Source: a virus
Virus record (IMG/VR): IMGVR_UViG_3300026518_000006
Coordinates: 62,001 to 126,000 of that record
Reading direction: 5' to 3' (one strand)
Length of the DNA: 64,000 bases
Shown here: piece after piece, positions 30,529 through 64,000 of the stretch
Position numbering within the stretch: position 1 is the first letter of the stretch
Layout of the letters: each line of letters opens with the position of its first letter
Program-made: the position numbers and the translations under genes
The notes under the pieces: generated by a model
What the model saw: only the letters and a program-made list of their open reading frames with translations
Told to the model about the DNA's origin: nothing
Database searches by the model: none

Positions 30529-32694
30529 TTATCCTTTTATATTTAAAATTGGTTTAATATGGTCTACAACCTCCACAAGGTCTTTTTGTAGTTCCATTAC
30601 TTCAAATATATTTTTATAAGCCTTTGGACTTTCATCAATCGTGTTATCTGAGTGGTTGGAGACTATCCCTTTCATATCATTATGAAATTCTTCCACATCA
30701 AGTTCTGTTTTGGCTTTCGCTCTTGATAATACTCTCCCCGCACCGTGAGAACTTGAACACATACTATCAACATCCCCTTTACCTTTTATTATAAATGAGC
30801 CATCACGCATATTTCCTGGGATTACGCCATACATCCCTTTATCTGCTTGTGTAGCTCCTTTTCGATGAATAACAAAATCATCAAAAACTTCTGCGTGATT
30901 ATGGTTTCTATTAATAAACATAAGCTCTTTCACAGATTCTTTTAATTGTTTATTAATAAGCCCTTTAATTACTTCTCCCATTCGTTTTCTGTTTTCAAGC
31001 GCAAACTCTAAACCAACATTTAAATCTTTGAGATAGTTTTTTCCATTATCACTATTAATATCAAATGAATAATGACCTTCTAAATTAGTTTTTAATCTCG
31101 CTCTTACTCGTCTATAAACGAACTCCTCCAATGCTTTATCATATTTTTCAGGATTATGTTCTCTCCAAGTATTTTTAGCCTTAAACTCATCAATATATCG
31201 TTGCTCATCTGTATTTGTAATTGCAGATAGTTTCATATAATGCTCTGCAATCTTGTAACCAAATCCTCTTGAGCCTGAGTGTATTACAATCCAAAGCTTA
31301 CTGTCTCTACCTGTCCCAAGCTCTATGAAATGGTTTCCGCCACCTAAAGTACCAAGCTGATATTTGGCAGTTTCAAACGCCTGTTTAGCAATATTAGTAC
31401 ATTCACCCAAATTATATTTTTGAGGTTTTGTGTGTTTTGCTGACCCAACAGGTATTTTCTCAACTATGTCGTCTTTAAGTTTATTTAAATCCAACTGTTT
31501 ATAATCAACATCAAGTTTAATAGCCGACATTCCACAATTTCCTGTAATAGATATTTTGCCATTTCTTCGTTGTACCCAATATCCTGTTTCGGTAGTAAAA
31601 CAATAAGCCTTACCATCTTCACTTTTAACTCGTTTTATATATTTTGGTTGTGGTAGCCCCACTATCTCATTATTAGTTGAATATAAATTATAAGTTGGGT
31701 TCCAATTTTCTTGGCACTCTTTTTTGTATTCTATTTTATGAAATCCTACCCGAACCCCGCTAACAGAAAAGGCGTACTGAATTAAATCAATATTCTCTTT
31801 TTGGTTGCTTGAAAATGTAAATCTACCATCTTGTTTTATATGCCCATCCCATAATTTAGACTCATTAGCAACAATTTCTAATTGTTTTTGATTTGCACCC
31901 CAAAGAAAACTTAAAGATTTAGTAGCTATTGGGGGGGTAAAACTGCAACTAAAATTTCCATTGGCTCTTGTATGAATATTAGGTACTATATTCACTTTAT
32001 CTAAAATGCTCAATAATCTGTCGATTTTTCGTTGTTTTATTAAATGAAATTCGACAATATCTTTTGTTCTTTTTCTTCTTCTAATGGTGCCATCTGCACT
32101 AATAGCAACTTGTAGTTGAATTTCAGCATCTGATAAATCTACCCCACCACCACTTAAATTAAAAGTAGTTTTGAAACCACCTTGAACCCCCTTTTTTAGA
32201 GATTTATGTTTTTTTAATAAATCTTTGGTTAAAAAATCTTTTGTTTTATATCCTTTTTTCTTTGACCCCATAAACAATAAAACTTTATGGTCATCCGTCA
32301 GCATTTGGTTAGTAATCTTATTATCAATTAAATTAAAATATTCACAGTCTTTTTTAATATACGCTAAAGGCATAGCAAAATTAGCGGTATCTGTTTTAAC
32401 ATCATACTGCAAAATTTCTTCATTATTATAATTACTAATCTTTACCCAACCTTTTTTTGTTAAATACTCGGTATCTTTATCGGTACACCCAATATCATAC
32501 CCGACATAAGAAGGAAATATTCTACCTTTTGATTTGATTACAGCACCAATTGGCAATGTATAACCTGTGTGGGAATCGGGCATTAGAGCACCCTGAATAT
32601 TACAGTCTAAGTTCATAGCTTCTCTAAACTGATTAATTGCATCTTGTTCCAATACTTCAGCATAAATTTTAGTGTTAGGTATTCCTAAATTCAT
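30529..32694 (-). CDS. rtcB: RNA ligase RtcB interrupted by an intein
   Basis: 721 residues: RtcB halves 1-69 and 387-721 (404 together, normal size) with a 317-residue intein at 70-386. RtcB motifs are MPDSHTGYTLPIGAV, GYDIG|CGMSAIK (the Cys after the splice is the Mn-binding residue), GGGNHFIELG, HSGSRGFG and SSHGAGRVLSRAKA with the guanylylated His. It joins 2',3'-cyclic phosphate ends to 5'-OH and could repair tRNAs cut by host nucleases; the tRNA cluster is next door. Splicing is needed for activity. Confidence 0.9.
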   Translation of the reverse strand: MNLGIPNTKIYAEVLEQDAINQFREAMNLDCNIQGALMPDSHTGYTLPIGAVIKSKGRIFPSYVGYDIGCTDKDTEYLTKKGWVKISNYNNEEILQYDVKTDTANFAMPLAYIKKDCEYFNLIDNKITNQMLTDDHKVLLFMGSKKKGYKTKDFLTKDLLKKHKSLKKGVQGGFKTTFNLSGGGVDLSDAEIQLQVAISADGTIRRRKRTKDIVEFHLIKQRKIDRLLSILDKVNIVPNIHTRANGNFSCSFTPPIATKSLSFLWGANQKQLEIVANESKLWDGHIKQDGRFTFSSNQKENIDLIQYAFSVSGVRVGFHKIEYKKECQENWNPTYNLYSTNNEIVGLPQPKYIKRVKSEDGKAYCFTTETGYWVQRRNGKISITGNCGMSAIKLDVDYKQLDLNKLKDDIVEKIPVGSAKHTKPQKYNLGECTNIAKQAFETAKYQLGTLGGGNHFIELGTGRDSKLWIVIHSGSRGFGYKIAEHYMKLSAITNTDEQRYIDEFKAKNTWREHNPEKYDKALEEFVYRRVRARLKTNLEGHYSFDINSDNGKNYLKDLNVGLEFALENRKRMGEVIKGLINKQLKESVKELMFINRNHNHAEVFDDFVIHRKGATQADKGMYGVIPGNMRDGSFIIKGKGDVDSMCSSSHGAGRVLSRAKAKTELDVEEFHNDMKGIVSNHSDNTIDESPKAYKNIFEVMELQKDLVEVVDHIKPILNIKG
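31537..32487 (-). other. Intein in RtcB (LAGLIDADG-type insert)
   Basis: Residues 70-386. It starts with Cys (CTDKDTEYLTKKGWV, block A), has the block-B motif MLTDDHKVLL and ends ISITGN before extein Cys387. The penultimate residue is Gly instead of the usual His, which is uncommon. The middle holds two degenerate LAGLIDADG segments (QVAISADGTIRR and ANESKLWDGHI), so homing activity may persist. Confidence 0.85.
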
Positions 32695-45698: not shown

Positions 45699-45720
45699 AT
45701 TAACCCTTTGGTTTTTAAAT

Positions 45721-45728
45721 TATTTATA
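45721..45728 (-). promoter_or_regulatory. Late promoter
   Basis: TATAAATA on the minus strand, 22 bases upstream of ATG 45698. Overlaps the upstream region of the divergent epimerase gene. Confidence 0.6.
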
Positions 45729-45770
45729 AGTTTAGTTTATTATAATACTCAACACAACAAAGGAAAAACT

Positions 45771-46658
45771 ATGAATATATTAATCACAGGTGGAGCGGGA
45801 TTTATAGGCACTCATTTATACCAACACCTAAAAGATAAACACAATATAAAAAGAATTGATAATTTTAAAACATCACTAAAAACAAAAGGTGTAATACCTA
45901 TGGACTTGTCCAATTTAAGTCGTGAAGAGATAAGTTTTATAGAGGATGTGTTAAAGGAAACTGATGTAGTATTTCATTTTGCCTCAAGCATAGGAGTAGA
46001 CTTGATTGAGAAAGACCCAAAAGGCACACTCTTAAACTCTTTCAATATCAATAACAACTTATTTCCATTATTTGAAAAATATAAACCAAAAGTCATTTAC
46101 GCAAGCTCAAGTGAAGTATACGGCTCAAGAGATACCCCTATGAAAGAGACTGATGACTTAATTATAGGCTCTCCACAAAATAGTATGCGATGGGGATATG
46201 CCACTCAAAAGTTGATGAGTGAGTTTTTAATTAAGAGTTATTCGTTTCCTTACACTATCGTTAGGTTTTTCAATGTGACAGGAAAAGGTCAGCGTGGAGA
46301 TTATGGTATGGTACTACCCCGTTTTATTCAGAGTAGTAAAAAGGGAGGTGTTTTAACTGTGTATGGAGATGGAGAGCAGAAGAGAAGTTTTTGTGATGTG
46401 CGGGATGCTGTTAATGTGTTGGAGCTTCTTCTAACAGAAATGGATGGTGAAATTCTCAATATAGGGAACGACCAAAACATCACAACAATTAAAGAACTAT
46501 CAACTAAAATTGTCATTACTACAGGAAAAGGAAATGTGGTATTAAAGCCTACTGAAAGACCTGTTGATATACAGAATAGAGTGCCTAATATAGATAAAAT
46601 GAAAACAATATACACCCCGAAATACTCAATAGAAGATATCATCAAAAGTATGTTGTAG
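45771..46658 (+). CDS. NAD-dependent sugar epimerase/dehydratase
   Basis: 295 residues from ATG 45771 (AAAGGAAAAACT upstream); earlier in-frame residues are non-coding. Extended SDR: NILITGGAGFIGTHLYQHL (Rossmann), ASSSEVYGSRDTP, WGYATQKLMSEFL (catalytic Y-x3-K), VRFFNVTGKGQ, and YGDGEQKRSFCDVRDAVNVL. Acts on a nucleotide sugar, likely UDP- or GDP-linked. TATAAT is at 45741-45746. With the next two plus-strand genes it suggests glycan precursor synthesis. Confidence 0.8.
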   Translation: MNILITGGAGFIGTHLYQHLKDKHNIKRIDNFKTSLKTKGVIPMDLSNLSREEISFIEDVLKETDVVFHFASSIGVDLIEKDPKGTLLNSFNINNNLFPLFEKYKPKVIYASSSEVYGSRDTPMKETDDLIIGSPQNSMRWGYATQKLMSEFLIKSYSFPYTIVRFFNVTGKGQRGDYGMVLPRFIQSSKKGGVLTVYGDGEQKRSFCDVRDAVNVLELLLTEMDGEILNIGNDQNITTIKELSTKIVITTGKGNVVLKPTERPVDIQNRVPNIDKMKTIYTPKYSIEDIIKSML

Positions 46659-46663
46659 GTGGT

Positions 46664-47002
46664 TTATAAGTCTTTTAAATCATCTTTTGTTTTCATTTTA
46701 CCATAGCTAAAAAATTTTTCGCCAAAAAATCTAACTGCTTTATAATAAAGATAGGCTATCAAGTAGTGGCTTATCTTTTCATACCATTTTGATTCGGCAC
46801 AATCTTTCTTCATATACTTATAAAACATATCATCGGCATATTTTCTATCATTTTCTTCTCCGCCTCTCCAATAATAAAAATCGTGTTGGTTACAAGAAGC
46901 TTTAAATAAAAAATTAGGGGCTTTGAACCACCCGCCCTTAGCCCCACACCCGTTACATATCTTACTCTTTTGTTCTTCGGTTAAATCACTATATTTTAGC
47001 AT
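46664..47002 (-). CDS. Phospholipase A2-like protein, late
   Basis: 112 residues. The segment KASCNQHDFYYWRGG has the C-x-x-H-D-x-x-Y core of prokaryotic phospholipase A2, followed at the expected distance by YADDMFYKYMKKDC (Asp and Cys). The N-terminal C-x2-C-G-A-K-G-G-W is also a family feature. A hydrophobic stretch (HYLIAYLYYKAVRFF) may bind membrane. Late promoter at 47025. Could act in lysis or at entry; no signal peptide. Confidence 0.65.
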   Translation of the reverse strand: MLKYSDLTEEQKSKICNGCGAKGGWFKAPNFLFKASCNQHDFYYWRGGEENDRKYADDMFYKYMKKDCAESKWYEKISHYLIAYLYYKAVRFFGEKFFSYGKMKTKDDLKDL

Positions 47003-47024
47003 TATATCTCTCTTTTGTTTTATT

Positions 47025-47032
47025 TATTTATA
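47025..47032 (-). promoter_or_regulatory. Late promoter
   Basis: TATAAATA on the minus strand, 22 bases upstream of ATG 47002. Confidence 0.6.
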
Positions 47033-47075
47033 AGGATAATTATATTATAATATAGGATTATTTAGGAGTTTAAAA

Positions 47076-47636
47076 ATGAAACCTGTGCTAATGATACACG
47101 AATTTAGTGAGGATATGTTGAATCTACCTCTTGAAAAATTCATATTAACATTTGATGATGGCTTATATACACAATACAAGTATCTTAGTGAACTGAAAAA
47201 AATTCCAACCAAAAAGATATTCTTTATATCTACAGGTATTGTAAGACCTGATGATGTGGAACCAAGTGATACTTTCATAAAATGTGAACTTGCTCATTAT
47301 AAGGCATTTAAGGGCAATTTCGAAAACTATATGAGTTGGGAAGAAATTATGGAAATTCATCTTACTCCAAACTGTGAAATTGGCGGTCACGGACACGCCC
47401 ATTTAAGATTGGAAGATATTAAATCTACAAGAGATAGATATAATGCGATAGACAAAGATTGCAAAGAGATGTTCAAACAATTTAAAGCCAATGGAATAAA
47501 CATATCAAAATTTTGTTATCCTTATAATTATGAAGACCATCTTCTTAAAGGGGTTCTACAAAGAAAAGGCATCAAGGAGTTCTTTGGGGATGAGAGGACT
47601 GCTATTGAATATATTCAACTAAAGGATAAACAGTGA
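47076..47636 (+). CDS. Polysaccharide deacetylase-like protein
   Basis: 186 residues. NodB-type landmarks: FILTFDDGLYTQY near residue 27 (catalytic/metal Asp pair), IGGHGHAHLRL near 105 (the H-x3-H metal motif) and FCYPYNYEDH. Shorter than typical NodB domains. Acts on acetylated sugars in cell-wall or capsule glycans in known relatives. -10 TATAAT at 47046; its stop overlaps the GTG of the next gene. Confidence 0.7.
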   Translation: MKPVLMIHEFSEDMLNLPLEKFILTFDDGLYTQYKYLSELKKIPTKKIFFISTGIVRPDDVEPSDTFIKCELAHYKAFKGNFENYMSWEEIMEIHLTPNCEIGGHGHAHLRLEDIKSTRDRYNAIDKDCKEMFKQFKANGINISKFCYPYNYEDHLLKGVLQRKGIKEFFGDERTAIEYIQLKDKQ

Positions 47637-48397
47637 CTATTATTATAGGCTTTGGGTTTGTTGGACAAGCAGTGTATCACTCTTTATTAAATAAAAGAAT
47701 GGATGTTATGATTATAGACCCGAAACGAAATACCTATACAAATAGTATAGAGTTTAGGAATGCCATTACTGCAAGTGAAATGGCAACTCAACCCACACTC
47801 ATTGTTTGTGTGCCTACACCACAAAATCCTGATGGAAGTGTAGATTTAAAAATCTTTTCTGATGTATGGAAGGACATTAAGAATTTTGATGGGCTTATTA
47901 TTATCAAAAGCACAATACCAAAAGAATTTATTCCTGCACAAGATAATGTAGTTTATAATCCTGAATTCTTGAACGCCAATACTGCTAATGAAGATTTTAT
48001 GAATCAGAAATATGTGGTATTGGGTGGTGAAATGGATTGGACTTGTAAAGCTGAAGATTGGTATAGAAACTATACTGTAATAGGTAGATATGATGATGTT
48101 TATTATGAGCACTGTTCGAAAGATTTAGCTTCTGATTTTAAATATATGAGAAACATATATAGTGCTTATAAACTTATGTTTTGGGAATTTGTTGAGGATG
48201 TGACAGGAAATAGCAGAAAAGTATCAGATATGATGAAGCATATTCCTGTAAGAGAAATGGACATTGTTGGGATGGATGGTTTTAGAGGATTTGGTGGAGC
48301 TTGTCTACCGAAAGATACAAATGCCCATCACGATATCCATAGACACAAATTAACCGAGTTTCTTTTAGATTACAACAAAGAGCTTCAATCTAAATAA
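47633..48397 (+). CDS. UDP-glucose/GDP-mannose dehydrogenase family protein, short
   Basis: 254 residues from GTG 47633 (AAAGGATAAACA upstream), overlapping the deacetylase-like stop. Rossmann start IIIGFGFVGQAVYHSLL, VCVPTPQNPDG, NPEFLNANTANEDF, and GFRGFGGACLPKDTNAH with the catalytic Cys. The C-terminal UDP-binding domain of full-length enzymes (~430 residues) is missing, so it may be a minimal enzyme or truncated. Confidence 0.78.
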   Translation: MTIIIGFGFVGQAVYHSLLNKRMDVMIIDPKRNTYTNSIEFRNAITASEMATQPTLIVCVPTPQNPDGSVDLKIFSDVWKDIKNFDGLIIIKSTIPKEFIPAQDNVVYNPEFLNANTANEDFMNQKYVVLGGEMDWTCKAEDWYRNYTVIGRYDDVYYEHCSKDLASDFKYMRNIYSAYKLMFWEFVEDVTGNSRKVSDMMKHIPVREMDIVGMDGFRGFGGACLPKDTNAHHDIHRHKLTEFLLDYNKELQSK

Positions 48398-52267: not shown

Positions 52268-52987
52268 CTATCGTCTCCGTTTTTTCTTGAACTCATCATA
52301 ATCATTAAAAATGAGTTCAATTTTATCACCTTGTTCTATAACTACTTTCTCGACATTATCCAAAACAGTATTTGAGCCATCAATCCAAACCATAACACTA
52401 TTTCTTGATGTTGGTTTTATGATGGTTTTTCTTGGTTTAATAACATAGTCTATGTTATGATTTGTTTTGTCGCCTGTGATACTCCACAAATTTGAACTTA
52501 ACGGCAATATAGTACCCCTGTTAGTTTTATTAATGCCCGTTGAACCTTGCGGTGTGCTTATAATCAAACCACCACCTTTGAATTCACCGAAAAGTTTATC
52601 TTTCTCTTCTATCTCAAAATTAATCCAAGCGTCCATACCATCAGACCCACCTATACATACATCATTAAATGCCTGAAAAACGCCTTTTTTTGGCTTTAAT
52701 ACATCATATATACTTGACAAGTCTCTTTCTCGTTTTTTATAATAAACAGTTACCTTAATTCTCCTAAAAATTTTAATGGTATGTTTTTTAGCAGGCTTGG
52801 TACCTTTTGTGTTATTCATAAGGAAATTCAGAGAACCCCCCGCTACTCCAAAAAAGGGCTTATTTAGGTGTGAAAATTTATGAATAGCTCTCAAGAGGGT
52901 GCCATCGCCCCCCTTAACATAGATATACTCATCTGCTTCTTTAATGACTTTTTTAGGGTCATAGTCATCTGTAAATATTGTCTTCAT
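52268..52987 (-). CDS. nadK: NAD kinase-like protein
   Basis: 239 residues. The NAD-kinase motif GGDGTLL is at 26-32 (YVKGGDGTLLRAI), followed by VAGGSLNFL (G-x-x-x-F-L), FNDVCIGGSDG (N-D/E-type motif) and STPQGSTGINKTNRG, matching the family's T-P-T-G-S-T-A-Y segment. It phosphorylates NAD to NADP. Last gene of the NAD cluster, four bases after the NAMPT C-terminal half. Confidence 0.8.
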   Translation of the reverse strand: MKTIFTDDYDPKKVIKEADEYIYVKGGDGTLLRAIHKFSHLNKPFFGVAGGSLNFLMNNTKGTKPAKKHTIKIFRRIKVTVYYKKRERDLSSIYDVLKPKKGVFQAFNDVCIGGSDGMDAWINFEIEEKDKLFGEFKGGGLIISTPQGSTGINKTNRGTILPLSSNLWSITGDKTNHNIDYVIKPRKTIIKPTSRNSVMVWIDGSNTVLDNVEKVVIEQGDKIELIFNDYDEFKKKRRR

Positions 52988-52990
52988 AGC

Positions 52991-53983
52991 TTACACTTTG
53001 GTTTTAGAGTTCTCACGGACATCATTAATATTATAAGTTTTTGTTATAACACCATTCTCAAATACCGTTTCAAGAATATCATAAGCACCTTCAAAATCTT
53101 CACCCACTTTATCAGTAAAGTATGTTTTTGTTGCAGGATTATAATATGTTGTAATTCTGCCCTTTTTAGACTTTTTGTTTGGTGCTGTAATTGGGTCTTT
53201 GAATACTTCTCTTTCTTTTCCATCTACAGTAATACTACTACATTTTACAGCAAAACCCAATGTATCTCTATCGTGCTGTTGCATAAGCCAACCTCCTGAA
53301 CCAAAGGCGATATTTTCAGAACTATATCCACGACTTTCCATAAGGTCAAGCATATCTTTCATATTATCCATAGTAATACCATCACCCCAAATAATGCGAT
53401 ACTTGTCCCAAACTTTATAACCTTTATTATTTTTAGTAAATGGCACACCATTCTCTTCCATAATATCTATAGTGGCTGTTATCATTTCGATAGGGTCTCC
53501 ACTATCAGGTCTCAAGACGAAGATAGGGTACTCAGGGCTGTCGATAAGACTTCTGAACCGCTCGGTGCCTGTAACTACATCAACGGCTTTAAGGTAGTCG
53601 TATGAGTCCATAACACCCGCTATAATATATGCCCCTTTGTTATTTCTGATGTGGTTTTCAATCATATCAAATTCAGAATCTTTACCCCAAGAGGTAGTCG
53701 TGCTGTGCTCAGTAGCAGGAATAGAAATTCCTATAGAAGCCAAAAACTCTTTTCTTCTTTTTATGCTTTCATCCAAACTTTCAGGATAAATCTTTTTTTC
53801 AGTACTACCTGAATCTGCTCCATAAAAAATGTCAGTGTATTTGATAGCTTGAAAATTATCAGTACCTAAAAATTGAGTGAGGTGAGCCATACCACCAATA
53901 CCTGCACTCTCTATAGAGGATGAACCTCTATCGCCAAAGTTTGCAAAACCCAGTTTTACTACCATTTCTTGTGTTTCAGTCAT
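52991..53983 (-). CDS. nadV: Nicotinamide phosphoribosyltransferase, C-terminal part
   Basis: 330 residues, starting MTETQEMVVKLGFANFGDRG and SSSIESAGIGGMAHL, the middle of NAMPT enzymes. Catalytic elements: DRGSSS (as in human GFRGVSS), FVLRPDSGDP (PRPP/phosphate binding), IIWGDGI and FGSGGWLMQQHDRDTLGFAVK. It makes NMN from nicotinamide and PRPP. The N-terminal 172 residues are a separate gene at 54664; the two are divided by an HNH gene. Confidence 0.88.
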   Translation of the reverse strand: MTETQEMVVKLGFANFGDRGSSSIESAGIGGMAHLTQFLGTDNFQAIKYTDIFYGADSGSTEKKIYPESLDESIKRRKEFLASIGISIPATEHSTTTSWGKDSEFDMIENHIRNNKGAYIIAGVMDSYDYLKAVDVVTGTERFRSLIDSPEYPIFVLRPDSGDPIEMITATIDIMEENGVPFTKNNKGYKVWDKYRIIWGDGITMDNMKDMLDLMESRGYSSENIAFGSGGWLMQQHDRDTLGFAVKCSSITVDGKEREVFKDPITAPNKKSKKGRITTYYNPATKTYFTDKVGEDFEGAYDILETVFENGVITKTYNINDVRENSKTKV

Positions 53984-53986
53984 TTT

Positions 53987-54616
53987 TTATTCCTTTAGAA
54001 TTTTCTCCAAAATCTCCAACTCTTCTTGTGTATAGAACTCAGTAGGCATTTTGGTATGTTTTTTAGAATTACAACTTTTACATAATACAACAGCATTACT
54101 AAGTTCCAACTTAAAACCTTTACTCAAAGGTTTATTGTGGTCTATAGCAATATTATCAGAAGTACCACATTTAAAACATTTGTAATCAAATCTCTTCAAT
54201 GTTATACACTCATCTTCATATGTAAAGTCTTCATTCAACTCTTGTTTTAAAGCTCTTCGTTTTATAGTAGATTTTCTTGAGTGAACATTACATTTGTCTT
54301 TATTCTCATTGTAATATTCTTTCTGATATTCTGCTACTTTATCACGATTAGCTTCTTTGTAATCATTCGCTCTTTGAATATATGACTCTTTATTAGCCTC
54401 ATACTCTTTATGTTTTGACTCTTTTAAAAACTCTTTATTATCTTCTCTGTATTGTTTTTTATATGCCCTTATTTTCTCTTTATTTTTTTGAGCATACTCT
54501 TTGTTTACCTTTGATTTGCAAGGCTTACAAATATCAGACAACTCATCTTTAGAGCGACTTCTTTTTCCGAATTTTGATTTAGGGACATTCGTTTTACATT
54601 TGTAACAGTATTTCAT
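53987..54616 (-). CDS. HNH homing endonuclease splitting nadV
   Basis: 209 residues. N-terminal zinc ribbon (CYKCKTNVPKSKFGK ... CKPCKSK), a long Lys/Glu/Tyr helix region, then the HNH core: CFKCGTSDNIAIDHNKPLSK and LSNAVVLCKSCNSKKHTKMP. Placed precisely between the two NAMPT halves, three bases from the second and 47 from the first, leaving no room for an intron. Near-late box CATAAATA upstream. Confidence 0.82.
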   Translation of the reverse strand: MKYCYKCKTNVPKSKFGKRSRSKDELSDICKPCKSKVNKEYAQKNKEKIRAYKKQYREDNKEFLKESKHKEYEANKESYIQRANDYKEANRDKVAEYQKEYYNENKDKCNVHSRKSTIKRRALKQELNEDFTYEDECITLKRFDYKCFKCGTSDNIAIDHNKPLSKGFKLELSNAVVLCKSCNSKKHTKMPTEFYTQEELEILEKILKE

Positions 54617-54663
54617 AGTAGTCCTTTTTGAATTTATTTATGAAATACCACTATCTCCAAAAT

Positions 54664-55182
54664 TTAATCAACAGTTTTTTCGGCATACTCTGTAAGCATT
54701 TGTTTGACATAGTAACTTCTTGTAGCAACATTGCAGGTATACCACACTTTCATAAGAACAGTCTCAAACCAAGAGGCAACCCAAAATACTTTAGGGTCTG
54801 TGCTCTCTATGGTAAACAGCACATTGCCATTTGGAATAACAGAGCCTTCTTTTACTGCTCTGATTTTAACAGGAAGTTTCCCACCAAGTTCTCTTGCAAT
54901 ATAAAACCAACCATCACCATCAAACGGAATACCGTGTTGTTCAGCATAAATTTTTGCCTCCACAACCTCTTCTTCGGTTATTGGTGTACTAAAGTAATTT
55001 TTAAGAATATATTGAAGACCAAAAAATACAGTTTTCTCATACACTTTTGTACTTCTTGCTTCAGCATAGTCATACATAGCTGTGGTGCCTTTAGGGTACT
55101 GCCAAGGGTGAGAATACTTATAGCTGTCTGCCAACATTACTCTGTTCGTTTTAAATTGTGTGTTTATATTTGTGTTCATCAT
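54664..55182 (-). CDS. nadV: Nicotinamide phosphoribosyltransferase, N-terminal part
   Basis: 172 residues from ATG 55182 (AAGGAGCTT upstream). NRVMLADSYKYSHPWQYPKG and YDYAEARSTKVYEKTVFFGL then QYILKNYF are the conserved NAMPT start; WFETVLMKVWYTCNVATRSY near 140 is the segment before the split. It ends EYAEKTVD with a normal stop. No intein or intron sequence is seen at the break, so the two chains would have to assemble. Confidence 0.88.
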   Translation of the reverse strand: MMNTNINTQFKTNRVMLADSYKYSHPWQYPKGTTAMYDYAEARSTKVYEKTVFFGLQYILKNYFSTPITEEEVVEAKIYAEQHGIPFDGDGWFYIARELGGKLPVKIRAVKEGSVIPNGNVLFTIESTDPKVFWVASWFETVLMKVWYTCNVATRSYYVKQMLTEYAEKTVD

Positions 55183-55208
55183 AAGCTCCTTATGTTTTTG
55201 ATTGTAAA

Positions 55209-55354
55209 TTAAGTCTTAGTGATAAACACTAAAACTAAAGCCATCACGACTAAGAAAGGAAAAAATCTCCAAAACCATTGTCGCTTTTGTTTCCGTTTTT
55301 GTTTCCGTTTTTGTTCTCATTTTCACCGTTTACATCGGGAAATGTAGTTGACAT
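55209..55354 (-). CDS. Small C-terminally anchored membrane protein, frame interrupted
   Basis: ATG 55354 (GAGGTAAA upstream) reads 34 residues of Asn/Gly/Lys-rich repeat and stops at 55250. If one base is missing in the T6 run near 55262, the frame continues as FFPFLVVMALVLVFITKT to 55209, a clear transmembrane anchor. The start overlaps the end of the gene at 55330. Low-complexity 12-base repeats encode NKNG units. Confidence 0.4.
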
Positions 55355-55698
55355 TTTACCTCATAGTAGTGATTTCTTAAATCTTTGTATCGGTCACGGG
55401 TCACATATCTGTTATCAGCAACTTCACCAAAGAACTTACTCTCAGGTAATTTACAAATCAACTTTGAGTTATTATACTTAAAAATACTTAAATTGTCAAA
55501 AAATTGTTTTCCCCCAAATGGTCTATATCTCATCCAAATATCATCAACAAATTTCTGAAAAGTTTCGTATTGGTCGGGATATAAACCTACTCTACCGTTA
55601 GGGTCTTTCATATCGCTGTACTTTGTTTCACGGACGGGGTGTTTTTCACACCACTCTTGGTAAGAGATTTCTGTATTTTTACATTCATAAAATTTCAT
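55330..55698 (-). CDS. Protein of the NAD cluster, unassigned
   Basis: 122 residues, aromatic and basic, with YPDQYETFQKFVDDIWMRYR and no catalytic motif I can name. Flanked by the NAMPT and acetyltransferase-like genes on the same strand. Function unknown. Confidence 0.5.
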   Translation of the reverse strand: MKFYECKNTEISYQEWCEKHPVRETKYSDMKDPNGRVGLYPDQYETFQKFVDDIWMRYRPFGGKQFFDNLSIFKYNNSKLICKLPESKFFGEVADNRYVTRDRYKDLRNHYYEVKCQLHFPM

Positions 55699-55713
55699 TT
55701 CATTTCCTACAAT

Positions 55714-56331
55714 CTACAAAATATCTTTCAAAAGAAGTCTAATATGCTTCTTATCAATACCATAAGACCAAACTCTGTTATCAAAGTCCCAATCTTCTGA
55801 ACCGTGCTTTAAAGTGACATCTTTTTCAAGGTATTTGTTGGCATTAATGTCTATGATATCCACTTTAACATCTAAGCTTTTGGATAATCTAGCCCACAGT
55901 TTTCTTGCTCCGAAATACTGTATTTCATCACCTAAGATGATATAACCCTCTTTTTTCACTAAGAACTTGTACATTGCGGTTGCTATGCCGTCACCTTGTC
56001 TTGTTTTAGCTACCATTACACCATCAACATTCATTAGCTTTTTGTTCAATTTAAAAGCATTTGCTACTGATTTATGCTCATTGAGTCTAATCTCAAAGTC
56101 AACCTCAAGCTTTTCATCACCCTCACTAGAAGTCATAAAATTACCTAATAGGTAAGTGTTCTCAAGGTGATAAACCAAATACTCTCTACTTGATACCTTT
56201 AATTCACCCACTTGTTTCCAATGCTTGTCTATCACTAATTTACTTCTAGTACCAACCATCTCTTTACTAGGGTTCCAATCACCATATCCTGCGATTGACA
56301 TCTCTTTTAATAGTTCTTCTCTAAAATCCAT
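55714..56331 (-). CDS. GNAT-like acetyltransferase
   Basis: 205 residues. The N-terminal half is a beta-rich domain; VAKTRQGDGIATAMYKFLVK matches the acetyl-CoA binding motif (R/Q-x2-G-x-G/A plus helix), and EIQYFGARKLWARLSK the C-terminal GNAT helix. Substrate unknown. Located in the NAD cluster two bases after the gene upstream. Confidence 0.55.
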   Translation of the reverse strand: MDFREELLKEMSIAGYGDWNPSKEMVGTRSKLVIDKHWKQVGELKVSSREYLVYHLENTYLLGNFMTSSEGDEKLEVDFEIRLNEHKSVANAFKLNKKLMNVDGVMVAKTRQGDGIATAMYKFLVKKEGYIILGDEIQYFGARKLWARLSKSLDVKVDIIDINANKYLEKDVTLKHGSEDWDFDNRVWSYGIDKKHIRLLLKDIL

Positions 56332-56334
56332 CTT

Positions 56335-56733
56335 TTATCCCTTTAATCTTTTTAGCTCATATTCAAAGTCATAAACTCTATTTTCGTGCAATAATTCAGC
56401 TATCTTGAGGTGTAAAATTTCCATCAATCTCAGGGTTTCTTGAACATCTCGTTTTTTTGGTAATGTACTGTACTTTTTTAAATTTCGTTTCTCTTTTCCT
56501 AATATATAATCAACATTTGAAGCATCAGTAATAGGCTCTTTAAACAGTAATTTAAAGTACAACTCTTTAGAAAATTTTCTTTTTGGTTTTTGCCAATCAT
56601 AGCCATCTATAGTGTATAACCAAGTCATAATATCATTGATATATTTATCTTCATTTGTATTATCTTTGTATCTCAAAAACTTAATAAGATGCTCATTGAT
56701 TTGGTTCTCTAAATTTCTAATTTTATCTTCCAT
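56335..56733 (-). CDS. Helical protein, probably continuing an upstream leader ORF
   Basis: 132 residues from ATG 56733, without a strong ribosome-binding site. Helical and basic. The upstream ORF (56798) shifts into this frame if one base is added in the A10 run at 56739-56748, giving an N-terminus MNIKEMFYDLILNE that resembles capsid-targeting peptides. Hence the true product may be about 154 residues. Confidence 0.5.
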   Translation of the reverse strand: MEDKIRNLENQINEHLIKFLRYKDNTNEDKYINDIMTWLYTIDGYDWQKPKRKFSKELYFKLLFKEPITDASNVDYILGKEKRNLKKYSTLPKKRDVQETLRLMEILHLKIAELLHENRVYDFEYELKRLKG

Positions 56734-56798
56734 AACTCTTTTTTTTTTAAAGCCATTTCATTAAGTATTAAATCATAAAACATTTCTTTGATGTTCAT
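56709..56798 (-). other. Leader ORF with A10 run and targeting-like peptide
   Basis: ATG 56798 follows AAAGGACAGAAG, an excellent ribosome-binding site. It reads MNIKEMFYDLILNEMALKKK, crosses ten A (slippery for polymerase or ribosome) and stops at 56709 in this frame. The -1 frame enters the gene at 56335. Confidence 0.5.
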
Positions 56799-56816
56799 CT
56801 TCTGTCCTTTAAAGCT

Positions 56817-57866
56817 TTACAACGACTTCGTGAAGAAATCTATAATATCTGCGTGGTCATCAAAAAGTTGCATATTCTTAACCTCTGCAAGTGGCACCCA
56901 TTTAGCATTAGAAGCATCATCAGACCCTTTTACTTTTGGAAGCTTTGGGTATTTGCCTTGAACAAAATCAGGCTCAATTTCAGCATAATAAGCGTTTGTC
57001 ATACGGGGTATTCCCATATTTCTAATAGGATTATCAAAGGTCTTGTATTCTTTGATGCTACCTTTTATTACTTTGTACGGAACCTTGATACCCGTCTCTT
57101 CAAACAGTTCTCTAATAGCACACTCCTCAAAAGTTTCATTTCTATTAACAAAACCTCCTGGAAGAGCATACACGCCTTTTCCTGGGGCGAATTTTCGTTC
57201 TATAAGCAAAACATTTCCTGAACATACAAGTACCATATCAGCACAGCAAAGCTTTAGTGTTTCGGGGTAAGGATAATCTTTAAATTTTTCAGCTTCTTTT
57301 TCGTGATATTCTCTTTCCTCTACCAAATCTTTATAGGCTTCGGTTGTGATGAATTTCTTCATATACTCCAAAGTTTGAGATGGAAGTGAATCTTTAAACA
57401 CCTCTTCTACTCTTTTTGGTGTAGGGTCAAGACTACACAATGTAAAGTACAAATTTCGGATTTCGGTTCCACTAATATTGCCTGCAAGAGACGGGACTTC
57501 TTGGTAATACCAATTCGGAAACTCTTTTAGATAAAAACTTGAAGCGTCTTTTGTGTGCCCGACAAGTGTTATTTTGCCTTGTGCAAGTGAGTTTACAACC
57601 ATTTCGACTTGACTTATCCACTTTTGTTCTTCGTAAAGATAATCTTTGATAGTAGCCACTTTGATTTTTGGGTCAATCGCTTTAATCCAACTTTCAATAA
57701 CATCTGTATTAAAAGGATTTTTTAAGTTTCGTCTTCTATTCGAAGAACCTATGAGAACTATCACATTAGTGTATTCTTTCAACATAATGTCGATTACACC
57801 TTTGTGACCATTGTGAAGAGGGGCAAATCTTCCGATGTAAACCCCTGTTGTGGGAGATATATTCAT
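56817..57866 (-). CDS. nadM: Bifunctional NMN adenylyltransferase / Nudix hydrolase (NadM-Nudix)
   Basis: 349 residues. N-terminal nucleotidyltransferase: VYIGRFAPLHNGHKGVIDIM (H-x-G-H), LIGSSNRRRNLKNPF and ISGTEIRN. C-terminal Nudix box GGFVNRNETFEECAIREL then FEETGI near 235. The first domain turns NMN into NAD; the Nudix domain of such fusions hydrolyses ADP-ribose in known examples. ATG 57866 follows AAGGAGCTTGAT. With nadV and nadK it completes nicotinamide to NADP. Confidence 0.9.
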   Translation of the reverse strand: MNISPTTGVYIGRFAPLHNGHKGVIDIMLKEYTNVIVLIGSSNRRRNLKNPFNTDVIESWIKAIDPKIKVATIKDYLYEEQKWISQVEMVVNSLAQGKITLVGHTKDASSFYLKEFPNWYYQEVPSLAGNISGTEIRNLYFTLCSLDPTPKRVEEVFKDSLPSQTLEYMKKFITTEAYKDLVEEREYHEKEAEKFKDYPYPETLKLCCADMVLVCSGNVLLIERKFAPGKGVYALPGGFVNRNETFEECAIRELFEETGIKVPYKVIKGSIKEYKTFDNPIRNMGIPRMTNAYYAEIEPDFVQGKYPKLPKVKGSDDASNAKWVPLAEVKNMQLFDDHADIIDFFTKSL

Positions 57867-59978: not shown

Positions 59979-61030
59979 TAGATATCATCCCAACCGTCAA
60001 TAACACTCATATTTTTATAATTGATTGATGTTACCTCAAAGTTGTTACTACGATTTGAAGCTTCATCATCTATACCCGCAATCAACTCCAAGTGATTGTA
60101 AGGATTCTTCTTTTTAGGAAAAATCTCTTCCAATCCTATGTGTTTTAATCTCATATTACCTAAATAGTGCGCATAGTCTTCAATACTTTGTTTGTTCATA
60201 CCGAGAATTTTATCGCCTATGATGTCTTGACTAAATTCAATTTCAATTTCTACAGCTTGTATAAACATTTCGTATATCATCTCTTCGTTTTCACCAATAA
60301 ATTCAGGGTTTTCTGCTCGTATTTCATTAATAATGTTCTTAAAAATATTACAGTGCTGAATTTCATCTCTTTGGATGTATCTAATTTGGGTATCAGTTCC
60401 TGCCATTAAACCACGACTTTGCAAATTGTGGAAAAATTGAAAACCATTATAAAAATAAAGACCCTCTAATAGATAGTTTGCAACTATGGTCTTTAATAGA
60501 GACAAATTAGTCGGGTTATCTTTGTGTTCTTGGTAAATTTCCGCTATCAAGGCATTACGCTTCAAAAGTAGTGGGTTTTCTCTCCATCTATATACAATTT
60601 CATCAGCTTTGTTTTTATCAAAAAGAGAAGATAGAATCCACCCATAAGATTTACTATGAATAGCTTCGTCATAAGTCTGTCTCGCTAATACATAAACAAT
60701 ATCAGGAGCCGTGATATATTCAGAAATATTCGGTAAATTGTTTGTTTGAATACTGTCCAAAAACACTAAGAAACTAATAATATCCTCAAAAGCTTGTTGC
60801 TCATCGGGGGTTAATTTTTTCCACTGTGCTTTATCATCTCCCATTGGGGTTTTGTGAGGAAGCCAGTTGTTACCATAAATAACATCAAAAATATCGTGAG
60901 CCCACTGATACTTGATATTGCTGAGGTTCAAGAGGTTTGTTGTGTCTCCTCCTAAAACTCTAACCTCTTCATCACTTGCATTTGGGTTGAATAGTGCTTT
61001 TTCTTTTATTTTTTGTTTGTTAGTAATCAT
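59978..61030 (-). CDS. nrdB: Ribonucleotide reductase class I, small subunit
   Basis: 350 residues. Diiron and radical features: FLVFLDSIQTNN (Asp), TYDEAIHSKSYGW (Glu, His), EGLYFYNGFQFFHNL (Glu and Tyr), RDEIQHCNIF (Glu, His). Provides the tyrosyl radical for deoxynucleotide synthesis with the large subunit encoded upstream. ATG 61030 overlaps the end of a GIY-YIG gene inserted between the subunit genes. Confidence 0.92.
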   Translation of the reverse strand: MITNKQKIKEKALFNPNASDEEVRVLGGDTTNLLNLSNIKYQWAHDIFDVIYGNNWLPHKTPMGDDKAQWKKLTPDEQQAFEDIISFLVFLDSIQTNNLPNISEYITAPDIVYVLARQTYDEAIHSKSYGWILSSLFDKNKADEIVYRWRENPLLLKRNALIAEIYQEHKDNPTNLSLLKTIVANYLLEGLYFYNGFQFFHNLQSRGLMAGTDTQIRYIQRDEIQHCNIFKNIINEIRAENPEFIGENEEMIYEMFIQAVEIEIEFSQDIIGDKILGMNKQSIEDYAHYLGNMRLKHIGLEEIFPKKKNPYNHLELIAGIDDEASNRSNNFEVTSINYKNMSVIDGWDDI

Positions 61031-61883
61031 TTATTTTTTCCTTTATGTATTGTATTAAATCATCTTTAATTTCCGCTGAGAACCATTCAGTAAAGCCATT
61101 AAATTTTTCATTAAATGTTAAGTTATAATCATTAAACTCATTATGAGCTTCATTTTCTAATCTCCTAATTACTTCATACTTGCCGTTAGCCTCAAAAAGA
61201 ACAACAACATTACCAACATCTTGAGAAATTTGCTTTAATCTTTTATCTAAATCTTTTGTGATGCCAACTTTAATCCCGATTTTATTTTCTATAACATACA
61301 AGATATAAATTGTACCCTCTTGTGATTTTTGATAATGATTTCTTGCTATTCCTTTTGACTTTTTTAAAGATGTTTCTTGCCACTTTTGAGTACCTAACTC
61401 TTCACCATATCTTTTGATATAGGCTTTCTCTGAGATTTCACACTTTTCTTTATAAGACTCGACATCTCTTTTACGATTATTGCAATAATCATTCCACTTT
61501 TGTGTGCCTAACTCTTGACCGAACTCATCTAAGTATCTTTGTTTTGAGTTTTTATATTTTATCTTATTACAATAATCATTCCACTTTTGTGTGCCTAACT
61601 TTTGACCATATTTAGTAATACATTTTTCAAGAGTAAAGCCCATAGTGTTTTGATAATCACTCCACTTTTGTGTGCCTAACTCTTCACCATATTTCTTGAT
61701 GAACTTTTCAAGAGTTTGTTTTTTAGACTCTCTGTACTTGGTGAACTCTTTAAGTCCTTTTTCATCACCGTATTCTAATATAAAACCTTGTTTAGACTTC
61801 ATACATTTTATACTGCAATAATTATATATAGTCTTCTTTTTTGTTTTTCTATCGAACTCTTTATTACAAATATCACACAACAT
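61020..61883 (-). CDS. GIY-YIG homing endonuclease with G-T-Q-K-W repeats
   Basis: 287 residues. N-terminal C-x2-C zinc motif and C-x3-C pair (CDICNK ... CSIKCMKS), then five repeats containing Y-G-E-E-L-G-T-Q-K-W spaced ~25-35 residues, and a C-terminal GIY-YIG-type domain of the T5orf172 kind (YILYVIENKIGIKVGITKDL with KRLKQIS). Sits between nrdA and nrdB. Late box at 61901. Shares its repeat with the endonuclease at 62392 although the nuclease domains differ. Confidence 0.72.
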   Translation of the reverse strand: MLCDICNKEFDRKTKKKTIYNYCSIKCMKSKQGFILEYGDEKGLKEFTKYRESKKQTLEKFIKKYGEELGTQKWSDYQNTMGFTLEKCITKYGQKLGTQKWNDYCNKIKYKNSKQRYLDEFGQELGTQKWNDYCNNRKRDVESYKEKCEISEKAYIKRYGEELGTQKWQETSLKKSKGIARNHYQKSQEGTIYILYVIENKIGIKVGITKDLDKRLKQISQDVGNVVVLFEANGKYEVIRRLENEAHNEFNDYNLTFNEKFNGFTEWFSAEIKDDLIQYIKEKINDY

Positions 61884-61924: not shown

Positions 61925-62395
61925 TCAATTGCTACAATCAGTACAGTTTGTCTCTTTTTTACCATCAATCGTTAAACTGTAGTAAACGGCTTTCAGTTCT
62001 TTTTTCTTAAATCCATCTAAAATAGCGTCTGAAATCAATTTTATAGTCGTTAATTCAGGATTAATATTAACTTCCATTGAAACACCTGTATCTGTCCATT
62101 TCTGTATTCTTCGTGTAACATTTATCATACTATGAGCACCGTATTGGAATTTCCCTTTATAGTACCAATATCTTGTCTTAATATAGCGTGGCAAAATCGG
62201 TACACTAATATCAGCTAAAGTTTGGTAATTTAGTTTGGAGTGTGGGGGTTGCCAAGAAGCAGTAGCCCCCATCAGAATACCGCTTGATGTGTTGTGACTT
62301 GCACACCCATTATCTAAGAAGTAATGGTGGTCTACCTCGACTTCAAAATCATAGGTGGGAATGGGGTCTTTTTTTGTTATTTTCTTAATTTTCAT
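61925..62395 (-). CDS. nrdA: Ribonucleotide reductase large subunit, C-terminal half with C-intein
   Basis: 156 residues. Residues 1-35 are a split-intein C-part: IPTYDFEVEVDHHYFLDNG then CASHN, ending in His-Asn. Residue 36 (Thr) starts the extein TSSGILMGATASWQPPHSKL, which continues the reductase, and the C-terminus has the redox pair CTDC. In trans it should splice to the N-half at 63343. Overlaps the endonuclease gene by four bases (ATGA). Confidence 0.88.
   Translation of the reverse strand: MKIKKITKKDPIPTYDFEVEVDHHYFLDNGCASHNTSSGILMGATASWQPPHSKLNYQTLADISVPILPRYIKTRYWYYKGKFQYGAHSMINVTRRIQKWTDTGVSMEVNINPELTTIKLISDAILDGFKKKELKAVYYSLTIDGKKETNCTDCSN
62291..62395 (-). other. C-terminal part of split intein
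   Basis: 35 residues ending C-A-S-H-N before extein Thr. Standard blocks F and G are present (Y-D-F-E-V near 15 and final H-N). Confidence 0.85.
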
Positions 62396-63312
62396 AATAA
62401 TTCCTTTAATTTATTGATTATATTTTTTAAATCTGAATTTTTGTTTATTCTGATTAATTTGTAGCCTTTTTCTAAGGCAACTTTCTCTTTCGCTTCATCA
62501 TTATCGATAATTGATTGTTTATCAATTAGAAAATGGTTTACTCCTATTTCATCCTCATTATAATGATACATATACCCGTCATATTCTATTATAATTTTTT
62601 TGTCCAATATTACAAAATCATAATAATATTTTCGGTCTGCTTCAACATAAAACTCTTCCATATCTTTATACCCAAAAGCGACATTCAACCCCATCCCCAA
62701 ACAAAACCCCCATATAGGCAATAGAAGCTCAAGAGACTCTTTTGATGCACTCCCTTTTAATTTATTTAAAGGTGTGTATTTCCCATTATAATGTCTCAAT
62801 AAAATCTCTTCATCTGATATATCAATATCATATTTTTTTCTAAAATGACTAATTATCATCTTATTGGATTGTTCGAAGTTATTTTTATAATACTTCTCGG
62901 TACCTTTTTCGACACCATATCTATCGATATAACCATCTAATGTATTAGCTAATGAAACTTTTTTAGCCTTTTCAAGATATTTTTTAGTTCCTATTTCTTC
63001 ACCATACCTTGAGACGAAAGATTTCAAATCACTTGAAATTTTTCCTTTTAGTTCATTAACTTTTTCAATAGCTTCATCTTCAGAAAGATTATATCTCTCC
63101 ATTTGCTGATTAATATCATATGGATTAAACTTTCTTTTAGATTGTTTAAGGTTAAATTGTTTTCTCCCCTCTACTTCACCTAATCTGTAAATATAACTTT
63201 CTAAACTATGTCCTGTTTTTAATTTTAGTTCATTAACTTTTTCAATAGCTTCATCTTCAGAAAGATTATATCTCTCCATTTGCTGATTAATATCATATGG
63301 ATTAAATCTCAT
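62392..63312 (-). CDS. Vsr-like homing endonuclease inside fractured nrdA
   Basis: 306 residues. Two nearly identical 35-residue N-terminal repeats (FNPYDINQQMERYNLSEDEA), repeats containing R-Y-G-E-E-I-G-T-K-K-Y as in the GIY-YIG gene, then a Vsr/EDxHD-type nuclease near 215-300 (YYYDFVILDKKIIIEYDGYM and KEKVALEKGYKLIRINKNSD). Free-standing endonucleases of this family between split-intein gene halves are known from environmental phage fractured genes. Confidence 0.8.
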   Translation of the reverse strand: MRFNPYDINQQMERYNLSEDEAIEKVNELKLKTGHSLESYIYRLGEVEGRKQFNLKQSKRKFNPYDINQQMERYNLSEDEAIEKVNELKGKISSDLKSFVSRYGEEIGTKKYLEKAKKVSLANTLDGYIDRYGVEKGTEKYYKNNFEQSNKMIISHFRKKYDIDISDEEILLRHYNGKYTPLNKLKGSASKESLELLLPIWGFCLGMGLNVAFGYKDMEEFYVEADRKYYYDFVILDKKIIIEYDGYMYHYNEDEIGVNHFLIDKQSIIDNDEAKEKVALEKGYKLIRINKNSDLKNIINKLKELL

Positions 63313-63342: not shown

Positions 63343-63690
63343 CTATTGCTTCTCATTGATATTTATAATATCATCACCCTCTTTCAATTCATCACAACGA
63401 ATCCAAATCTCTTCGCCATTTCTATAGACAAGTAATTTGTGATTGTAGGTGAATTCATAAGTATTTCCATCTTCAAATTCAATTTCTATAACAGGTTGTT
63501 TTCCGTTATACCAAATGCGGTTTACTTCACTTTCTCCGTTTAATGTAGGTACTTTTATTGCGTCTATACCTATCCATTGCGGAACATTCAACTCTTCTAT
63601 TTTTCTGTAGTCTATATTTTGTTCTTCAAGAATATCATAAATAGATTTATTGCCGTCTGTTGTTTTCATTTTATTATGACCACTTTGACA
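63343..63690 (-). other. N-terminal part of split intein
   Basis: 115 residues from Cys1 to the stop, with blocks A and B and no endonuclease domain. Partner is 62291-62395 across the endonuclease gene. Confidence 0.82.
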
Positions 63691-64000
63691 GTTTGGTGCA
63701 GTAGCCAATAATAGGAAATTTCTAATCCCTTTTTCTTGAATTTTTTTAGACATTTCAGACCACTTGAAACCATTTAGGCTCTCTTTATCAAGTTGTTTGG
63801 TATTTTTTCCGAACATTTTAGAATAATCGGCTTTATCAAATAAAGGATAAGCACCTTTTTTCTCTGCAAGTTGAACACTTCTCTCATAACAATACCAAGC
63901 GATTTTTTCGTAAACCTTTTCAAGCTCGTCTAAGTCTTCAGGCTTCTCATAAGATAATTTATTATAAGCCATCCAATCACCTGTGCCCAACACTCCAATA
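63343..64000 (-). CDS. nrdA: Ribonucleotide reductase large subunit, N-terminal half with N-intein (partial)
   Basis: The frame enters from the right edge (IGVLGTGDWMAYNKLSYEK) and ends at TAA 63343. Extein residues include KGIRNFLLLATAPN, directly followed by Cys and an N-intein (WIGIDAIKVPTLNGESEVNR; block B YEFTYNHKLLVY). Spliced to the C-half it gives the usual reductase sequence LLLATAPN-TSSGILMG. The apparent start near 63993 is only the window edge. Confidence 0.88.
   Translation of the reverse strand, partial: IGVLGTGDWMAYNKLSYEKPEDLDELEKVYEKIAWYCYERSVQLAEKKGAYPLFDKADYSKMFGKNTKQLDKESLNGFKWSEMSKKIQEKGIRNFLLLATAPNCQSGHNKMKTTDGNKSIYDILEEQNIDYRKIEELNVPQWIGIDAIKVPTLNGESEVNRIWYNGKQPVIEIEFEDGNTYEFTYNHKLLVYRNGEEIWIRCDELKEGDDIININEKQ

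Follow-up and report, generated by a model that had tools for sequence, protein, structure and literature searches.

A 64,000-nt stretch of viral DNA (the window), part of a 235,593-bp viral contig, carries on its minus strand the genes of three enzymes that together would lead from nicotinamide to NADP. They are a nicotinamide phosphoribosyltransferase (NAMPT, gene nadV), a bifunctional nicotinamide mononucleotide (NMN) adenylyltransferase/Nudix hydrolase (nadM-Nudix) and a NAD kinase. The NAMPT gene is cut in two by a free-standing HNH endonuclease gene. We favour, with moderate confidence, the reading of this region as a phage salvage module resembling the NAD+ reconstitution pathway NARP2, in which the HNH-split NAMPT, a case of genes in pieces, probably still works. 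NARP2 itself is made up of NAMPT and an NMN adenylyltransferase (NMNAT). The anatomy of the module is firm, comprising its genes, the split, the conservation of the halves, the hairpin and motif at the HNH gene and the recurrence of the NAD kinase.

A preliminary description, made from the sequence alone, had placed nadV, nadM-Nudix and nadK within this interval of the minus strand, and family and structure matches identify each of them. It had also spoken of a single block and of a complete module. The same-strand run stands, but the HNH gene and three small open reading frames (ORFs) intervene, so the three enzyme genes share a run without being contiguous. All the enzymes are encoded; however, NAMPT occupies two ORFs around the HNH gene, which the description omitted, and completeness therefore hinges on the assembly of the halves. 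From 57866 down to 52268, the features are as follows:

56817..57866, minus strand: nadM-Nudix, bifunctional NMN adenylyltransferase/Nudix hydrolase, 349 aa (2qjo; PF01467 and PF00293)
56335..56733, minus strand: 132-aa ORF between nadM and nadV, no Pfam or PHROG match
55714..56331, minus strand: 205-aa ORF of the PHROG 15502 family, which has no assigned function (PHROG E=4e-14)
55330..55698, minus strand: 122-aa ORF between nadM and nadV, no Pfam or PHROG match
54664..55182, minus strand: nadV-N, first 172 aa of NAMPT, NAMPT_N domain (PF18127, E=9e-27)
54635..54642, minus strand: late-promoter-like CATAAATA, matching TATAAATA at 7 of 8 positions and overlapping the 5' arm of the hairpin
54608..54648, minus strand: RNA hairpin at the HNH start, stem GUAUUUCAUA / UAUGAAAUAC
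53987..54616, minus strand: HNH endonuclease gene between the nadV halves, 209 aa (PF01844, E=3.6e-8; PHROG 1035, E=5e-22)
52991..53983, minus strand: nadV-C, last 330 aa of NAMPT, NAPRTase catalytic domain (PF04095, E=4e-39)
52268..52987, minus strand: predicted NAD kinase, 239 aa, starting 3 nt past the nadV-C stop (motifs, family profiles, fold)

The nadM-Nudix gene thus lies 1.6 kb upstream of NAMPT on the same strand, separated from it by the three small ORFs (55330-56733).

The NAD kinase and the salvage module

The nadM-Nudix product aligns to a solved NMNAT/Nudix enzyme (PDB 2qjo, residues 7-347, E=5.5e-56) and matches the NCBIfam bifunctional NMNAT/Nudix family at E=3e-88. Its motifs are intact: GRFAPLHNGH (GxxxPxHxGH), ISGTEIR and a complete Nudix box, GX5EX7RELFEETGI. 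The Nudix domain of the preliminary description is therefore present and, together with the nadV halves, so is its NARP2-like pair of NAMPT and NMNAT.

The product of 52268-52987 is more distant from known families. In Pfam it scores 21.2 bits on its own, under the gathering cut-off of 25.5, and its NCBIfam NAD kinase match (E=2.4e-20) lies under the equivalog cut-off. A profile search against the PDB retrieves NAD kinases at E=4e-13. The AlphaFold model reaches a pLDDT of 87.9 and a pTM of 0.85 with an input of nine sequences, against a pLDDT of 34 with two. All listed top matches of the model in Foldseek are NAD kinases (E=5e-13). The motifs GGDGT, AFND and STPQGST are found in the window protein, and the aligned intact relatives keep GGDGT, AFND/AFNE and ST(P/A)QG(S/T)T. 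Families and predicted fold support a divergent NAD kinase, in line with the preliminary assignment.

The window NAD kinase alone, as a query, found no relative in viral contigs; alignment queries did. Relatives are present in nine other viral contigs, intact in eight (43-57% identity) and as a decayed remnant in one. An NMNAT gene lies at most 6 kb from the NAD kinase gene in seven of the eight contigs with an intact relative, and is adjacent to it in L001, a locus of the nearest related contig, G001. Six of the eight also carry nadV, the other two being short fragments. In more distant nadV contigs the NAD kinase is absent, as far as the contig fragments reach. The NMNAT partner varies, being the fused NadM-Nudix in the window and in L010 and another NMNAT in most of the remaining loci. 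A stand-alone Nudix protein was rejected as a fixed partner; a motif regular expression matched no listed locus, and Pfam supports the one in L042 only, not the L001 candidate. In this locus the NAD kinase is no chance companion, since its relatives lie close to NMNAT, NAMPT or both in further phage contigs. By gene content, NAMPT, NMNAT and NAD kinase form a recurrent phage module. Bacterial sequences gave nothing above about 30% identity over a long stretch and one 43-aa match at 44%, too distant for a donor or host to be named. The 2022 survey of viral NAD and ADP-ribose metabolism discusses NadV, NadM and NadR, and a text search of it finds no mention of NADK or "NAD+ kinase" (PMC9503650).

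Two side observations concern these loci. In L009:9634-10385 only a C-terminal piece of the NAD kinase gene is left, lacking GGDGT, and a cREC gene adjoins it. A PHROG 15502-like protein, alike by eye, stands beside nadV both in the window (55714-56331) and in L003:4845-5429, with further copies in L003.

In the proposed pathway, the two-part NAMPT would form NMN from nicotinamide and host phosphoribosyl pyrophosphate (PRPP), NadM would convert NMN to NAD+, and the NAD kinase would convert NAD+ to NADP+. The Nudix domain could hydrolyse ADP-ribose-type products. The likeliest benefit would be to keep NAD(P) available in infection, including against NAD+-destroying defences. If the NAD kinase is part of such a counter-defence, phages would protect NADP too, and NADP loss would become a testable facet of NADase immunity.

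It is possible, and we take the possibility seriously while giving it less than an even chance, that the genes serve ordinary nucleotide and redox metabolism with no counter-defence, supplying NADPH for ribonucleotide reduction and NAD for host enzymes; a split enzyme is compatible with this. A ribonucleotide reductase (RNR) gene cluster lies on the same strand about 2 kb upstream of the module, and our literature search found no role of NAD kinase in NARP2. On the other hand, the contig has no dihydrofolate reductase (DHFR) gene, and NAMPT with NMNAT is the NARP2 pair. In L001 and L009 the NAD kinase gene adjoins a cREC gene, whose domain has been reported solely in connection with RNA repair and cyclic ADP-ribose (PMC9503650), although the contig of the window has no cREC gene.

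A NAMPT gene split by an HNH gene

In PHROG 448, nadV-N covers columns 8-185 and nadV-C columns 183-496, so that between them the two ORFs account for every part of the protein. The break coincides with the boundary of two Pfam domains, since nadV-N carries NAMPT_N and nadV-C matches PF04095 from position 3 of 239. The NCBIfam scores of the halves, 196 and 280 bits, sum to about that of the intact L001 protein (483 bits; cut-off 405). Two observations bear on whether the specificity is that of NAMPT (PRPP) or of Namat (ADPR-PP): among solved chains NAMPTs come nearest (7yqo, 161 bits for nadV-N), and the phage also encodes an NMNAT. The contig holds no second nadV or other NAPRTase-family locus, nadV-C being the only one.

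The insertion site is free of interruption in all 36 nadV relatives compared, L001 included; some of these are near-duplicates and a few are cut short where their contig ends. L001 has ...AEKTQD-NPFVAYSYHNFGDRG... at this point, where the window has ...AEKTVD followed by the stop codon TAA and then MTETQEMVVKLGFANFGDRG. The nadV-N ORF has its own ribosome-binding site and ends in NAMPT residues. The nadV-C ORF starts 3 nt past the HNH stop with its own ATG, its Shine-Dalgarno (SD) sequence AAAGGA lies within the HNH 3' end, and 14 residues precede its NFGDRG motif. Non-coding sequence around the HNH gene amounts to only 47 + 3 nt, and neither half has a stop or frameshift. Among the near-invariant columns (at least 95% conserved among nadV relatives), nadV-N keeps 13/13 and nadV-C 48/49, in total 61/62. 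In a leave-one-out comparison, intact relatives retain about as many.

Two ways of rejoining the halves were tried as candidates and rejected. No Rfam intron model matches the gap region, even at E<=5, and there is too little non-coding sequence for a group I intron. A split intein is ruled out by the sequence of both half ends, neither of which has intein residues at the break. With no detectable intron and no intein residues, the halves would need to work as two chains. We propose that a free-standing homing endonuclease entered nadV between the N-terminal and catalytic domains, and that nadV-N and nadV-C, each with its own start and stop, would assemble non-covalently, as in NrdA of phage Aeh1. 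The sequence of the split NAMPT suggests that it is likely active.

The HNH protein has N-terminal CxxC motifs and a C-terminal HNH domain. There is no second copy of its gene in the contig, and two other HNH domains occur elsewhere in it. A relative in phage f2b1 stands as a gene of its own, flanked by a helicase gene and the ORF that follows. The gene fits the genes-in-pieces layout, as it interrupts a gene that is intact in relatives and leaves the coding sequence in place. Its AUG lies in the 3' arm of the hairpin, whose stem has 10 perfect base pairs (11 counting a G-U), with an SD sequence AAGGA in the loop. Among 113 ORF starts, one has a perfect 10-bp stem that includes the ATG (its palindromic mirror comes in addition), as do 4 of 2157 ATGs. 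Exact copies of TATAAATA lie upstream of late genes, such as portal. A mobE-type start-codon hairpin with a late-promoter-like motif in its 5' part is thus present at the level of sequence, with the motif at 7/8, and the same arrangement is known from I-TevI and Aeh1 mobE (PMC2988022). This analogy supports both the mobility and the hairpin regulation of the HNH gene. In early read-through transcripts the hairpin, holding the AUG, would probably block HNH translation; late transcripts starting inside the hairpin would allow it.

Several points weigh against this reading, with its working split enzyme and hairpin-regulated HNH gene. The histidine preceding NFGDRG, found in 36/36 relatives, is an alanine in nadV-C, adjoining the insertion; as the position is otherwise invariant, NAMPT activity could be altered or lost. 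It corresponds to H191 of human NAMPT, in the wall of the active-site tunnel, which lines the inhibitor tunnel and where R is tolerated in resistant cells (PMC3019212, PMC4186856). If the insertion were very recent and the gene now dead, the sequence would look almost the same, and there is no close DNA relative by which to gauge selection after the split. The contig encodes no PRPP synthetase. The folding energy of the hairpin is unexceptional against shuffles (z=-1.3). Random positions reach 7/8, the score of CATAAATA, in 11% of 50-nt stretches, such matches to TATAAATA being common in the AT-rich DNA of this phage.

The HNH insertion might, then, have inactivated NAMPT, leaving NadM and NAD kinase functional in a decaying module that has lost the entry of nicotinamide. 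The split, the altered histidine beside the insertion and the decay of a module gene in a relative (the L009 NAD kinase remnant) would all agree with this. Still, we judge it unlikely: the halves are free of stops and frameshifts and conserved at nearly every near-invariant column, each has its own start and SD sequence, the break falls between domains, and Aeh1 NrdA is a precedent for retained function (PMC2988022). A cryptic self-splicing intron, with full-length NAMPT made from spliced mRNA, is very improbable: HNH genes often lie within group I introns and other HNH-bearing introns of phage CB7 do splice, but to the lack of an intron match and of non-coding sequence are added the separate starts, stops and SD sequences of the halves and the unspliced state of the CB7 nadV interruption itself (PMC7344957).

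A two-chain NAMPT, if true, would add a new member to the naturally split metabolic enzymes. The active site of human NAMPT lies at the dimer interface, and a two-chain NAMPT therefore raises the question of a four-chain assembly. More speculatively, and with doubts that we keep, the NAD kinase-extended module could rebuild both NAD+ and NADP+ through an obligate two-chain NAMPT made by the endonuclease, with NAMPT dosage perhaps under endonuclease timing. We infer assembly, activity, regulation, mobility and a counter-defence role from the anatomy and precedents given here.

Phage context and other mobile elements

The contig has T4-like genes: baseplate wedge, portal, major head protein, topoisomerase II large subunit and NrdB. 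Against annotated phages (Vibrio first, then Campylobacter phages) its major head protein reaches about 44% identity at most; against G001 it reaches 74%. No annotated phage record matches region 52268-57866 at the DNA level, and PADLOC returned no defence system.

The nrdA gene is also in pieces (61925-62395, 62392-63312 and 63343-64000, continuing in L061:6344-9574). The large NrdA ORF holds a LAGLIDADG intein and ends in an N-intein segment (PF14890). It is followed by a 306-aa endonuclease-like ORF and then by a 156-aa ORF, which opens with a C-intein-like segment (...GCASHN) and completes NrdA, in a split-intein "fractured gene" layout. Unlike the nadV halves of the same contig, the nrdA pieces thus carry intein segments. 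Between nrdA and nrdB, a 287-aa endonuclease-like gene (T5orf172, 61020-61883) has the layout of the nadV HNH gene. Its start codon is enclosed by a hairpin that ranks first among 72 starts, and the 5' arm of this hairpin contains TATAAATA. A 548-aa homing-endonuclease-like ORF (26835-28481; PHROG 559/3339) directly follows the major head protein gene.

Elsewhere in the window, a 721-aa ORF (30529-32694) with PhoH-like N-terminal and RtcB RNA ligase C-terminal parts lies beside a tRNA cluster. A cluster at 45708-48397 has nucleotide-sugar epimerase, polysaccharide deacetylase and UDP-glucose dehydrogenase-like genes.

Comparison with known systems

Every part of the module has a precedent; for the combination, and for the recurrent NAD kinase, none was found in our literature search. 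NARP2 was named for T4-like Schizotequatroviruses (PMC12028318) and described as NAD+ replenishment (PMC11984713). The likeness lies in both enzymes being encoded on one strand of a phage; the differences here are the added NAD kinase and the two-piece NAMPT, and the present system is known from its genes. KVP40-type vibriophages hold the best annotated nadV relatives (about 41% identity), in which nadV is intact. Vibrio phage KVP40 shares the fused NMNAT-Nudix, and tblastn finds no NAD kinase of the window family in KVP40-type phages. NadM is known to occur in phages (PMC9503650).

In Sinorhizobium phage Phosso, an annotated NAD kinase has NMN adenylyltransferase and NMN transporter genes about 5.5 kb away, and a phage NAD kinase as such is therefore not new. 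The Phosso enzyme belongs to another lineage (33% over 157 aa) and another phage type, with no nadV listed near it in the genome stretch examined.

Mobile elements have reached nadV and other enzyme genes elsewhere. In Staphylococcus phages phiSNIID and vB_Sau_Clo6, inteins interrupt nadV (PMC5526547). As in the window, the element sits at conserved nadV motifs, but it is an intein read in frame, which in phiSNIID precedes the catalytic TEHS, and not a free-standing gene. In Aeh1, NrdA is split by the free-standing HNH gene mobE with its function retained (PMC2988022). In both cases an enzyme gene is split by an HNH gene that stands free and has a hairpin at its start codon and ribosome-binding site, with a late promoter (here a late-promoter-like motif); the target is nrdA there and nadV here, where the HNH gene is of the PHROG 1035 group and the regulation is predicted.

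The nadV of Pectobacterium phage CB7 (CB7_244/245/246) is likewise interrupted by an HNH gene, is unspliced by reverse-transcription PCR, and was proposed by its authors to give a two-polypeptide NAMPT (PMC7344957). CB7 belongs to the Vequintavirinae, whereas the window phage is T4-like. In CB7 the catalytic domain itself is interrupted, past the SEHS catalytic motif, and in the window the boundary between domains; blastp finds no significant similarity between the two HNH proteins. The window's split is therefore independent in site and element. If true, it would be the second independent break of nadV by an unspliced HNH gene after CB7, which suggests that homing into NAD-salvage genes recurs.

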